DNA from: Bradyrhizobium sp. AZCC 1610
Lineage (GTDB): Bacteria > Pseudomonadota > Alphaproteobacteria > Rhizobiales > Xanthobacteraceae
NCBI RefSeq assembly: GCF_036924515.1
Contig: NZ_JAZHRR010000001.1
Location: 2,017,001 to 2,081,000 of the forward strand
Direction: 5' to 3'
DNA length: 64,000 nucleotides
The stretch's first letter is position 1; each line of letters starts with the position of its first letter. The notes beneath the pieces were generated by a model. That model was not told the origin of the DNA. It was given only the letters and a program-made list of their open reading frames with translations, and made no database searches. A program made the translations under genes and the position numbers. Positions 8,380 through 64,000 of the stretch are shown piece after piece.

Positions 8380-8879
8380 AGTTGGAATATCCTTCCAGTT
8401 TCGACGCAGGTCAGGAACGATGCAGCTCGGTGAAGCGCCGCGAAATCTGAGCGGCGAGTACGGAGAACGGTCCCTCGACGGTGAGGGCAGCGATCCGTTT
8501 GACGTGCGCCGAGCGTCACCCCCACCTCGGAATTGGCCGACGGGTGCGGTTTTGGGAGAAGCAATTAGTTCCGGGCGGGCTATTTGTCATCGGGCATCTC
8601 TTTGAGTGTGCGTCGAATGGATGACAGGAGGGGCCGGGTCGAGATCACGCGGCCGGCCGGTTCCGCGGCAGGAGCCGCCATGACGACCGTGACCGTCTGG
8701 CGGCGATGAGTGCGGCGGAGGTGTTCACCGGCTAGTCGAGCCTGTGAGTAAGCGAGCTGGGCGCCGGCCTCGCATCTCAACTGAACGATGCATCTCAAGT
8801 GCGCCAGCCCTTCTGCTGGTCGTCGCCGCCATCATTTCATATTCCGCTCCGACTTCCATGCCAGCATTTGCAGCTCTCG
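8380..8879. other. 500-base stretch without a recognisable gene
   Basis: It lies between the GT4 gene (stop at 8880) and the flippase start (8379), both on the minus strand. Several short frames of 70-80 codons exist on either strand, but none shows a family motif or a good ribosome site. It probably contains decayed coding sequence, in keeping with the rest of the locus. Confidence 0.35.
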
Positions 8880-60096: not shown

Positions 60097-61110
60097 AATG
60101 GTTTTACGGCTTATACCGCGCTCTCCCTGGAGACGAATTCCTTTTGCCTCCATCGCTGACGGATTGAAGGATTGTCAAAACCCGGTTGGGTCGACGCTCC
60201 TCCGCCAGCTTGACACCAGCAACGGGTGCCAGGACCACACGGCTTTGCCGTACGCAGCCTCGCCAGTCGTCCGCACGTTGTGTCCGCTCACGGAGCAAAG
60301 CCCGCCCTGCAAACACGACCACGCGCCCGACGCTGCCGCGTCCACCGCAACCCGCCCCAACGTTCGTGACGATGGCCAACGCCCCTCTACCGGGACGGGA
60401 TGGCGGGATTTGTAAGGGTGATTTGGGTCTCGCGCGAAGAAGTATATTTTTTCAATCGAGACTGGATCGAGCAAGTCACGTTGAAGTCGCTACAGAAAAT
60501 CGATTTTGCGCGCACCGGCCATTTGCTCCGGCGAGCAAAATAAAGAGAGGTACGGAGGGTTACATCAGTTCGGCGATACCAGTTGGTCGCGCGAATACGA
60601 GGAAACGGTTAAATGCACCGTAATTCCAATCATTATCAGGAGCGTGGTCTTGCCCGAGGCTAACGGGCGACCACCGTCACATGCGTCGTTTTTCAGGTTG
60701 ACAGGATGAAGGGCGCACGAAGCTTCATATTTCTTTGACAAGCCGTTCAGACGAGCGTCACCACACGCGATGCGCGCCTTCAGCTTTTCGTAACATGCTG
60801 TCGACCGTAACTTGAATAGCGCGCTAGAGGCACGACAGCATTCTGCGTCGATACATTAGGCCCCCGATAGACATCCACGAATGCTCGCAGTCTGAACGAA
60901 AAATCCGTCGCCTAATTGCCAATCTTCATGTCGATCACCTTGCGCAAATGGAAATTACGTGCCCAGCGTCATTTCACAGCAGTTCGATTGCGAGAGTGGT
61001 CCGAACTTAAAAATACAAATCCCTTTGACAAGGCGCCAAAATTAAGCTCTACCTTTGGTTGTCTAGACAGATTCTGTTTAACGCGCGATCTCGCAGCCAA
61101 CGGAGGAAAA
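60097..61110. other. 1-kb non-coding region with repeat-like sequence
   Basis: The part from 60120 to 60420 reads like another dispersed rhizobial intergenic repeat and has no convincing coding frame. The rest up to 61110 has only short frames; it should contain the promoter of the gene set starting at 61111, but no clear motif was seen. A good ribosome site (GGAGG) lies at its right end. Confidence 0.4.
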
Positions 61111-61855
61111 ATGTTTACTGCAGTCGAGATTGATAGCTTCGAAGAACAATCTTGGGAACGCCAGAACTACAATTCCTTCAAAGGCCAGCTATTCAGCAAG
61201 GACAAGAGCTTCCCCTGCGTGTTCGGTGTCGAAGCAAATGCGCCGCAGCACGCTTCGGTTTGGCTTCTTTAATTCCGTCGACTTCAACGACATGGTGAGG
61301 CTGGCGCATGACTTGCAATCCTTCCTAAGGATATCCCGGTCGCTTACTCCCTACACATCCTACGTAGCGTTTTTCGATCCGGCTATCGTCGCCTTTTCAT
61401 TGCTGTCTGACTACGAGAACGCTTTTTGGCGCGTTCTAAATGCACTGAACTCCCTCGATAACAGGACCTGGCCGGAATCGATCGACCCGCGCGTCGATAC
61501 GCCATCCTGGGAATTCAGCTTCGCAGGCGAGATGATGTTCGTCGTCTGCAATACACCCCTGCACCATTCTCGACTCAGCAGATATTCGCCCGGCTTCACG
61601 ATTACCTTCCAGCCCCGCTGGGTGTTCGACAAGATAGGCGCCGGGACGGTTGCGGGGGATAGCGCGCGAGCCGAAATCCGCCGTCGCCTCGAGTCTTACG
61701 ATTCGGTCGCTCCTTTTCCACGCCTCGGTGCCTACGGCGAGGAGGCTAACCGTGAGTGGGAGCAGTACTTCCTGCCCGACGACAACACCGTGACGAACCG
61801 TAATTGCCCGATGGTCGTAACAAACCGAGCCAGGCAACGCATTGTTGCCGCATAG
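61111..61855 (+). pseudogene. YqcI/YcgG-family protein (possible heme N-oxygenase), one-base frameshift
   Basis: The ATG at 61111 has GGAGG five bases upstream and reads MFTAVEIDSFEEQSWERQNY up to FPCVFGVEAN; it then stops at 61270. From about 61240 another frame continues the family sequence: RRSTLRFGFFNSVDFNDMVR, TWPESIDPRVDTPSWEFSF, MMFVVCNTPLHHSR, RYSPGFTITFQPRWVFDK, and a stop at 61855. Joined by a single-base deletion the whole would be ~248 residues, a normal YqcI/YcgG (PF08892) protein. The family includes GntA and AglA, reported to oxidise guanidine nitrogens using heme. The gene is either newly broken, misread in sequencing or shifted on purpose. Cupin, GNAT and MFS genes follow on the same strand. 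Confidence 0.75.
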
Positions 61856-61865
61856 GGGATTCTCA

Positions 61866-62177
61866 ATGTCTGTCGAATTTCAATATAGCGCTCGCCCCAC
61901 GCTCGAGGCCGCCGTCCAGGAGCTTCTACCTGAGACCGGCTCCATCGAAGTTCAACGCGATACACCTGGTCGTCGCCACGATTGGCATACACATCAAACG
62001 GACGAAACCCTGCTGATCATCGACGGCGAATTGTCCTTTGAGAGCGAGTTGGGACTGAAGGTCTGCCGGCCTGGAGATCGTATACTGTTGCCGCAAGGCG
62101 TACGTCACGCGTCCACGGCCGGCGTCGATGGTTGTATCTATCTTATCGCATTACGCCGGGTGTCCCAGCGCTCGTGA
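61866..62177 (+). CDS. Single-domain cupin
   Basis: The ATG at 61866 (MSVEFQYSARPTLEAAVQEL) has GGGG upstream and follows the preceding stop by ten bases, so the two genes are probably in one operon. The 103-residue protein is a minimal cupin. Motif 1 reads DWHTHQTDETLLIIDGELSF and motif 2 PGDRILLPQGVRHAS, so the three His and one Glu that bind a metal are all present. Such proteins may be enzymes or metal/ligand binders. Next to a YqcI/YcgG-type oxygenase gene it could act in nitrogen-nitrogen or N-oxide chemistry, but this is an inference from neighbours. Confidence 0.8.
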   Translation: MSVEFQYSARPTLEAAVQELLPETGSIEVQRDTPGRRHDWHTHQTDETLLIIDGELSFESELGLKVCRPGDRILLPQGVRHASTAGVDGCIYLIALRRVSQRS

Positions 62178-62287
62178 CGCGAACATTCGACGGGAGCATT
62201 AGCGTCACGTCTAAGCGATAGTTGCTTCGCGGCGTTTGGTTCGCGCGGCGAGCACGAAGATCTTCACCGACTTCAATGGAGGCAAAC

Positions 62288-63019
62288 ATGCAGCAGCTCG
62301 TAGAAAGCGAACATAGGATACCCGACGGATATAGGCAGGGTCCGTACGAACTCGAGGTGTTTCGCTCGGCCTCGAATATTCCCCAACACTGCTGGGGCGG
62401 CATCATCGATCTGCTAAACGAGATCATCGCGACCAACTGGCGGATCGACACCCCCTGGTGGTCGCCCTCCGACACGCCCTTCCGGGAAGGATACGGCATT
62501 GCGTTTGTCCGACACGACGATCAGATCGTCGGCTTCACAATTTGGCGCAGGCTTGTTGTCAATGATCGACCAACGATTAGTCGATCGGGAATCGAGCTCA
62601 GGCCGGAGCATCAGGGCAAGGGACTGTTCGGCCTGCTGCTAAAGGGAGTGCTTGACGCCGAATTGTCGTCAGTTCTGGAGGGCGACGAGGTCTACTATTC
62701 CTGGAGGACGCGTAATCCGGTTGCTTGGAGCGCACACGCCAAAGTCTGCACGCGGCTATTGCCTTCGCTGGTCGACGGCAATGACGACGGATCACTGCAG
62801 GACGTCGCGCTCCAGATTGCAAATACCCTTTACCCGGACAGAGCTCTGGAGCTTCCGAACATGGTCATTCGCAACTCTTATCCGAACATCACCTACCACC
62901 GCCAACCCTCATACGAAACCAATGGCGCATTGACTGAGAAGTTCAGGCGCCTCATTCCTGATACGGCGGACGCGATCTTTACTGTCGGGACAATCAGGAA
63001 ATCGGGCTCAGCCGCTTGA
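62288..63019 (+). CDS. GNAT-family acetyltransferase
   Basis: The ATG at 62288 has GGAGG six bases upstream, better than earlier in-frame starts. The ~243-residue protein has the GNAT core: GIAFVRHDDQIVGFTIWRRL for strands 2-3, SGIELRPEHQGKGLFGLLLK with the acetyl-CoA loop (Q-x-x-G-K/G), and TRNPVAWSAHAKV as strand 5/helix. The flanking N-terminal ~55 and C-terminal ~90 residues are not family-typical and may define substrate. It should acetylate an amino group of a small molecule or peptide in the cytoplasm. It lies 110 bases after the cupin gene on the same strand. Confidence 0.8.
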   Translation: MQQLVESEHRIPDGYRQGPYELEVFRSASNIPQHCWGGIIDLLNEIIATNWRIDTPWWSPSDTPFREGYGIAFVRHDDQIVGFTIWRRLVVNDRPTISRSGIELRPEHQGKGLFGLLLKGVLDAELSSVLEGDEVYYSWRTRNPVAWSAHAKVCTRLLPSLVDGNDDGSLQDVALQIANTLYPDRALELPNMVIRNSYPNITYHRQPSYETNGALTEKFRRLIPDTADAIFTVGTIRKSGSAA

Positions 63020-63039
63020 CATTGCATCGGGACCAGACG

Positions 63040-64000
63040 GTGCAACCCAAACCTCATGACGCCATCGCTCCGATTTCTCGGCGCGATCTTATCGCTTGGA
63101 CTTGCGTATCGAGCGCCTACGCCGTCGCTTTTTTGCAGCGCGTTTGCCCGCAGACCATCGTCGACGATCTGGCGCGCGATTTCGGCGTAGGTGCCGACGG
63201 ACTAGGGATCATCGCATCGGCGTACTTCATCGGCTACATGCTGATGCAGTTTCCCGCCGGCGTGCTGGTGGATACATACGGTGTCAGGAGGCTCGTCATC
63301 TGGAGTCTCGCAGCATCCTCCTCTGGAACCTTGCTGTTCGCCGCCGCCCCCAATGTCCCGATTGCATTTCTCGCGCGGCTTATCATCGCCTGCGGTGATG
63401 CGCTGATCTTCACGGCGCTCATCAAACTCGTAGCGCAGCAATTCCGGGAGCGCCAATTCGGGATCATGTCGGGCCTTTCGCAATTATCCGGCTACGCAGG
63501 TGGCGTCTTGGCGGCCACACCGCTTGCACTTACCGTGGCATGGATCGGCTGGCGCGCCAGCTTTGCGGGCATCGGCGTATTTTGCTTTTTCAACCTTGTT
63601 CTTGCTGCCTCCATCCTGCCGGTGCGAGTTTCGACGGCCAAGCCGCCGGTTCTCTCGGCCATCCTGTTTTCGGCATTGGCCGAGTTAAAGAGCCGAGAAA
63701 GCTGGGGATGTCTGCTGACATTTTCGTCGCATTTTGTTGCCGTCACGACCATCTCAGGCGTCTGGGGTGTTCCATTGCTGACGGACGCCTACGGACTGGA
63801 GCGGCAGCACGCCACGACCGCACTGGTGTTGTTTATGGTTGGCTGTATGGTCGGTTCTGTAGTGTTCGGGCACTTTGTGGACAGGATCCAATCTTTGGTG
63901 CGTGCGCACATCCTGATGTGCCTGCTTCGTTCGGGCTGCCTGGCTCTGCTGATACCGACAATCGGAACTGCTATCGGCCTCGAAGCGGTTTTCGGAGCGT
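63040..64000 (+). CDS. MFS transporter, 5' part (cut by window edge)
   Basis: A frame open from a probable GTG at 63040 (VQPKPHDAIAPISRRDLIAW) to the right edge gives 320 residues. Ten or more hydrophobic helices are visible, with the MFS signature between helices 2 and 3 (GVLVDTYGVRRLVIW) and loop residues of helix 4/5 (RLIIACGDALIF). The pattern AYAVAFLQRVCPQTIVDDL near the start is typical of the sugar/nitrate-type or drug-exporter MFS proteins. As last known gene of the 61-64 kb set it is a candidate exporter of that pathway's product. The gene's 3' end lies outside the window. Confidence 0.85.
   Translation, partial: MQPKPHDAIAPISRRDLIAWTCVSSAYAVAFLQRVCPQTIVDDLARDFGVGADGLGIIASAYFIGYMLMQFPAGVLVDTYGVRRLVIWSLAASSSGTLLFAAAPNVPIAFLARLIIACGDALIFTALIKLVAQQFRERQFGIMSGLSQLSGYAGGVLAATPLALTVAWIGWRASFAGIGVFCFFNLVLAASILPVRVSTAKPPVLSAILFSALAELKSRESWGCLLTFSSHFVAVTTISGVWGVPLLTDAYGLERQHATTALVLFMVGCMVGSVVFGHFVDRIQSLVRAHILMCLLRSGCLALLIPTIGTAIGLEAVFGA

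Follow-up and report, generated by a model that had tools for sequence, protein, structure and literature searches.

A probably decaying copy of a recurrent YqcI/YcgG-cupin cassette in Bradyrhizobium and a tentative route to N-N bonded amino acids in its intact relatives

The closest described counterparts of the locus analysed here are the enzyme pairs ChmN/ChmM of chalkophomycin and GrbE/GrbD of gramibactin biosynthesis, which also combine a YqcI/YcgG-type hydroxylase with a cupin protein proposed to rearrange hydroxylated arginine. ChmN is an arginine hydroxylase whose partner, the SznF-like protein ChmM, according to the available part of the report has shown no in vitro activity so far (PMC10849742), and the arginine-derived graminine requires both GrbE and GrbD (PMC9679993). 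In the available part of a review, the cupin step of such pathways is treated as unconfirmed (PMC11705231). SznF of the streptozocin pathway carries N-oxygenase and cupin in one protein, with a diiron HDO domain as the oxygenase. AglA of the argolaphos pathway (structures 9ub3, 9ub5, 9uba, 9ubb and 9ubs) binds heme through Cys44 and is nearly inactive on free arginine (PMC12866846). YqcI/YcgG genes have also been predicted to belong to operons with HDO-cupin and NRPS genes, with an absolutely conserved N-terminal cysteine in the protein and with cupin, ligase and transporter genes nearby (PMC2922099). That work assigned the conserved cysteine to thioester anchoring, its cupin belongs to a diiron oxygenase-cupin protein, and small cupins and YqcI-cupin fusions are absent from the available part of its account. 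Within the accessible excerpts of the literature that pairs YqcI/YcgG with a cupin, the partners are HDO-cupin or SznF-like proteins; the AglA paper is not among the literature records combining "yqci" and "cupin".

Here, we analysed a stretch of 64 kb from Bradyrhizobium sp. AZCC 1610 (the window), which is part of a single 7.75-Mb contig. At its right end lie genes for a YqcI/YcgG protein, a cupin, an acetyltransferase and an MFS transporter, all on the + strand:

61111..61272, +, N-terminal piece of YqcI/YcgG, a 53-aa frame with W and the FPC-Cys motif; aligns to the N-terminal stretch of relatives, alone without Pfam match
61232..61855, +, remainder of YqcI/YcgG in another frame; PF08892 193.4 bits, profile 17-210 of 211; AglA alignment
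61866..62177, +, small cupin, 103 aa, 3 His and 1 Glu (H41, H43, E47, H81); Cupin_2 27.2 bits
62276..63019, +, acetyltransferase, GNAT fold by structure model, 247 aa; homologues adjoin MFS-YqcI-cupin in relatives
63016..64000, running on to about 64299, +, MFS transporter, 427 aa; PF07690 130.3 bits on L002:5017-6297

Along the cassette, the genes are separated by 10 bp and 98 bp and then overlap by 4 bp. The MFS gene runs past the window end; its full length is present in the genome, with its stop at L002:6300 (about window position 64299), and the frames of cupin, GNAT and MFS are open. The original prediction of four same-strand genes with short gaps is confirmed in families and strand by Pfam, and by a model for the GNAT; the YqcI/YcgG gene, however, lies in two frames, a break that had been overlooked.

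The family profile matches the genome twice, in two frames, with model positions 3-47 at window 61108-61242 and model positions 38-243 at 61214-61840. Aligned with relatives, the two pieces together span the family end to end and meet soon after the FPC motif, whose cysteine is present in the first piece only. A family-profile search found no second YqcI of this kind in the same genome. The proposed membership in PF08892 itself is borne out, the second piece alone scoring far above the cut-off of 27 bits, and the kinship to AglA is firm. Cys44 of AglA aligns with the FPC cysteine of the YqcI relatives, and the second piece keeps the AglA contacts F152, R166, Q177, R179, F182 and R200, with an arginine at K196 (alignment read by eye; numbering of heme and substrate contacts from the available part of PMC12866846). 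The FPC motif is found in 80/80 named loci (defined below), so that the relatives do not form a clade devoid of heme ligands, as had been considered possible. The idea of a heme N-oxygenase is thus supported for the relatives, whereas in the window the proximal FPC cysteine is not in frame with the domain; since this is the residue that binds heme in AglA, the encoded product should be inactive. The protein is not a GntA: the NCBIfam model of GntA, NF041366, gives 49 bits for the window piece and 64.6, 56.2, 83, 57.4 and 59.4 bits for five relatives, against a cut-off of 145. In four Actinobacteria (L065, L083, L095, L120) the YqcI domain lies inside a very long open frame of 697-863 aa, with an MbtH match in L095; these frames are candidate fusions or simply GC-rich open frames.

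To place the locus, we scanned named genomes with the YqcI alignment, so that loci were fetched by similarity, and kept the best 80 of 126 confirmed relatives (the named loci). All four genes occur in 40/80 named loci, in the single order GNAT-MFS-YqcI-cupin together with a divergent regulator (DJ-1/PfpI plus AraC-type by Pfam, L032). These 40 loci belong to 38 Bradyrhizobium, one Hyphomicrobiales MAG and one Gluconacetobacter, and three of them carry a gene flagged as short or split (cupin in L088 and L112, GNAT in L090). The order in the window is permuted relative to them, and thus the same four families occur in two arrangements. A GNAT search (197 relatives) found 25 genomes, our own included; among 20 larger stretches fetched afterwards, 14 (L032-L045) show GNAT-MFS-YqcI-cupin in that order, and in the other six (L046-L051) a more distantly related GNAT is all that is present. 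The four genes form a cassette that recurs and is not accidental, and the concern that the four genes might rarely be adjacent elsewhere can be set aside. YqcI-cupin pairs or fusions are found in Bacillota, Pseudomonadota and one actinobacterial MAG. A PF08892 sample of Pseudomonadota that was not chosen by similarity gave matches in 22/398 genomes, again including our own. Within about 1.5 kb on either side of the 22 other loci (from 21 genomes), neither a cupin nor an SznF-like protein was matched at E 0.001. The YqcI-cupin pairing marks a subfamily and not PF08892 at large.

The core of the cassette is YqcI plus cupin. A small cupin lies directly downstream of YqcI in 61/80 named loci (51 adjacent, 10 in one open frame), and one further fusion, P0024, was found in the protein database. 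The 19 loci without a small cupin are all from Actinobacteria and all contain a SznF/ChmM-like protein (E 1e-10); conversely, no SznF-like protein was detected at that threshold in the stretches compared for the 61 small-cupin loci, some of which are short. The kinship to SznF was demonstrated by PDB search on one of the 19 (L113), and this SznF-like protein gave no match at E 0.001 in our own genome in a search run without a positive control. The complementarity of both partner types suggests that YqcI and the small cupin may work together as a compact pair for N-oxygenation and N-N bond formation, a variation on ChmN/ChmM and GrbE/GrbD. In contrast to these systems, where the partner is SznF-like, the cupin here is a stand-alone or fused domain of about 100 aa with 3 His and 1 Glu; it lacks an HDO domain, and no NRPS gene belongs to the Bradyrhizobium cassette. 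The Paenibacillus-type fusion follows the same logic as SznF, but its oxygenase is a YqcI/YcgG domain and the resemblance between the cupins is distant. The family has another type of partner in other Pseudomonadota, where a distant YqcI/YcgG, also PF08892, is followed by a DUF1989 gene instead of a cupin (L182:2134-2715 and L172:2134-2706, Pfam on these two; comparable neighbours, judged by eye, in L169, L178, L186 and L189).

The Cupin_2 score of the small cupin exactly equals the cut-off, and Pfam found no other domain in the protein. H41, H43, E47 and H81 are invariant across 12 aligned small cupins, in agreement with the full 3-His/1-Glu site originally described; by the general cupin motif, we take these residues to be the metal ligands. 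In the relatives, the pattern was recognised by script in 54/61 cupins and by eye in six more, and the remaining one (L112) is out of frame. All 16 aligned SznF-like rows have an arginine at the position of Glu47, and the three-His/no-Glu pattern of the SznF type is thus not found here. By PDB sequence search, the small cupin is closer to the quercetinase YxaG (6.6e-12) than to SznF (about 3e-4), and in fold searches it ties with many cupins, SznF being one among many. A profile comparison with the SznF cupin gave a probability of 92.4, E 5.2e-7 and 28% identity over 68 columns, values that stand without an unrelated-cupin control. We therefore do not claim a specific kinship to the SznF cupin, since sequence and fold searches rank it among many. 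The Zn-cupin hydrazine synthases RHS1 and PyrN differ as well: the ligands of RHS1 are Asp, His, Glu and His, whereas the first one here is His (His-x-His versus Asp-x-His), and no MetRS partner of their kind was seen among the neighbours, judged from translations.

For the acetyltransferase, the best Pfam score (16.3 bits) stays below the cut-off of 20.7. Nevertheless, its structure model (m7029543d0fb5, mean pLDDT 85.9) retrieves NatD, RimI and others in Foldseek (E 1e-7 to 1e-5, TM-score by query length about 0.4), which supports the predicted GNAT fold. PDB sequence matches of the GNAT were insignificant, and a plasmid search gave one distant record. Distant GNAT relatives in L046 and L047 lie near ornithine/arginine decarboxylase-like genes, in L047 also near an MFS-like and an ATP-grasp gene, a hint of a natural-product acyltransferase family. 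The transporter assignment holds by its PF07690 score, and the window MFS is 44-47% identical to the MFS adjoining GNAT in genomes of the same genus. An extension to the right had been proposed to look for a PLP enzyme, an amino-acid ligase or a MetRS-cupin; none was seen in 13 kb past the window end, where Pfam covered the desaturase, aldo/keto reductase, TonB receptor and PepSY genes and the others were judged from translations. The desaturase was rejected as a GntB (20.1 bits versus 380) and scores 369 bits with the DesA desaturase model, below that model's cut-off of 500.

Other loci offer a more varied company. A divergent LysE gene is present in 10/14 Bacillota loci and absent in three Paenibacillus and one Tumebacillus, as found with a query taken from one of the ten positives, on which Pfam was run. 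In Paenibacillus L055 the order is ATP-grasp, YqcI-cupin fusion, ATP-grasp, MFS, in Bartonella L123 it is MFS, ATP-grasp, YqcI, cupin, and the metagenome bin L071 has an Lrp-type regulator and an amino-acid permease nearby; no company of this kind was evident at L060 and L072. Such neighbours would be expected for a small product resembling an amino acid, which is exported, in some cases after capping or ligation.

Taken as a whole, we read the window copy as a probably acquired and decaying version of a small biosynthetic and export cassette, whose intact relatives would N-oxygenate an arginine-type guanidine with the cupin most likely joining the nitrogens, a reading in which our confidence falls slightly short of an even call. 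The original pathway idea is in this way better founded than before for the relatives and is not supported for this copy with its frame-broken oxygenase. To begin with, the YqcI/YcgG protein, as a heme-thiolate N-oxygenase by family and conserved residues, would hydroxylate arginine, or a compound derived from it, at the guanidine. The small cupin, in some loci one protein with YqcI, would then rearrange the hydroxylated guanidine, a role suggested by its taking the place that SznF-like proteins occupy in other clusters; two guanidine nitrogens would most likely be joined, giving a diazeniumdiolate or N-nitroso amino acid, e.g. graminine. Finally, the GNAT may cap the amine, and the MFS, or LysE in Bacillaceae-type loci, may export the product. 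Gene content, breaks, residue conservation, fusions and, for the fetched loci, the rule of partners are observed; substrate, N-N bond, acetylation and export are inferred. Some observations count against this scheme, namely the glutamate kept where SznF-like cupins have arginine, the closer sequence match to YxaG than to SznF, the tie with many cupins in fold, and the lack of in vitro activity of ChmM in the available part of PMC10849742.

On a broader scale, YqcI/YcgG together with the cupin of about 100 aa and 3 His/1 Glu could represent a heme-based counterpart to SznF, widespread and self-contained, by which Bradyrhizobium, Bacillaceae, Paenibacillus and Bartonella would produce and export a free amino acid with an N-N bond (diazeniumdiolate or N-nitroso), no NRPS being involved; we regard this generalisation as possible, though more doubtful than the reading above. 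If true, a single small protein would be enough to convert arginine into an amino acid with an N-N bond, which might bind metals or release NO. Such chemistry, found so far in NRPS clusters, would then also exist outside them, in plant symbionts and soil Bacillota, and the cupin step, unproven for ChmN/ChmM and GrbE/GrbD, would become approachable in a simpler protein.

Alternatively, the cupin may perform other chemistry, e.g. oxidative cleavage of the N-hydroxylated guanidine to citrulline and a nitrogen oxide, which would make the module an NO/HNO source or a hydroxyguanidine maker. The 3-His/1-Glu site, with quercetinases as the nearest solved sequences, would suit such a reaction, guanidine N-oxygenation is the characterised activity of AglA and GntA, and a product no longer showing the hydroxyguanidine is termed a first for ChmN in the available part of PMC10849742. 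We nevertheless consider this somewhat unlikely; the two partner types, small cupin and SznF-like, are mutually exclusive over the 80 loci, which fits a shared role. That the module N-oxidises, acetylates and exports a guanidine-type antimetabolite, such as an arginine analogue from plants, and in this way detoxifies it, appears improbable: GNAT and exporter are at hand, LysE accompanies most Bacillota loci, and a strong YqcI match (a count of YqcI alone) occurs in 62/265 genomes of this plant-associated genus, but the ATP-grasp ligases at the Paenibacillus and Bartonella loci point to the building of a product.

As to the state of the window copy, the genes are arranged in the same way in G511, the nearest relative found, which is 98.3% identical across window 61546-64353, compared with 91.6% in the left flank. 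Its YqcI gene has lost about 380 bp, its GNAT contains a frame break and its cupin end a frame change. A PF08892 scan of 265 genus genomes gave 73 matches, 72 of them above the cut-off; the 62 matches of at least 210 bits span the profile from 1 or 2 to 210 or 211, and the match starts at profile position 17 in our genome and at 124 in G511. Partial matches also occur in five further genomes (G573, G475, G564, G033 and G017), and the L090 and L112 genes look split, so we do not claim that only our genome and G511 carry broken copies within the genus. A sequencing error behind the frame break, with the oxygenase functional here too, would agree with a gene that is well preserved apart from this one break, and with the open cupin, GNAT and MFS frames that follow. 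The break stretch is missing in G511, which for this reason cannot decide between an error and a true break; even so, the damage to its copy of the same gene, to its GNAT and to its cupin end indicates decay in this lineage and makes the error a rather remote explanation. In consequence, the window copy of the cassette is probably decaying and the oxygenase step probably lost in this genome. The MFS has a dN/dS of 0.22 between our genome and G511 (13 synonymous, 8 non-synonymous changes), and so the transporter may still be in use. Programmed frameshifting was dropped, as relatives read the break site in a single frame, and a chance grouping was rejected with the four genes common to 40/80 and the YqcI-cupin pair to 61/80 named loci.

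The cassette copy was probably acquired. This view relies on the different gene order, on the position of the window YqcI outside the common Bradyrhizobium clade, where it pairs with the metagenome protein P0001 (support 100/100; the tree comprises 64 rows, all of them relatives, and leaves out 25 Bradyrhizobium rows), and on a DNA match of about 98% in only one other genome of the 265 in the genus. With 0.55-0.58 in the cassette genes, 0.593 across the window as a whole and 0.667 in a single neighbouring gene, the GC content is weak evidence of acquisition. A few kb to the right of the cassette, L002:10136-14609 contains genes for a TonB-dependent receptor and a PepSY membrane protein, and this DNA does not align to the G511 stretch. 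Besides, a repeat of about 80 bp is located near the right end of the cassette at L002:6969-7048 and 8395-8480 (about window 64968 and 66394); it has 12 matches in the genome, mostly partial, and related copies adjoin the cassette in G511.
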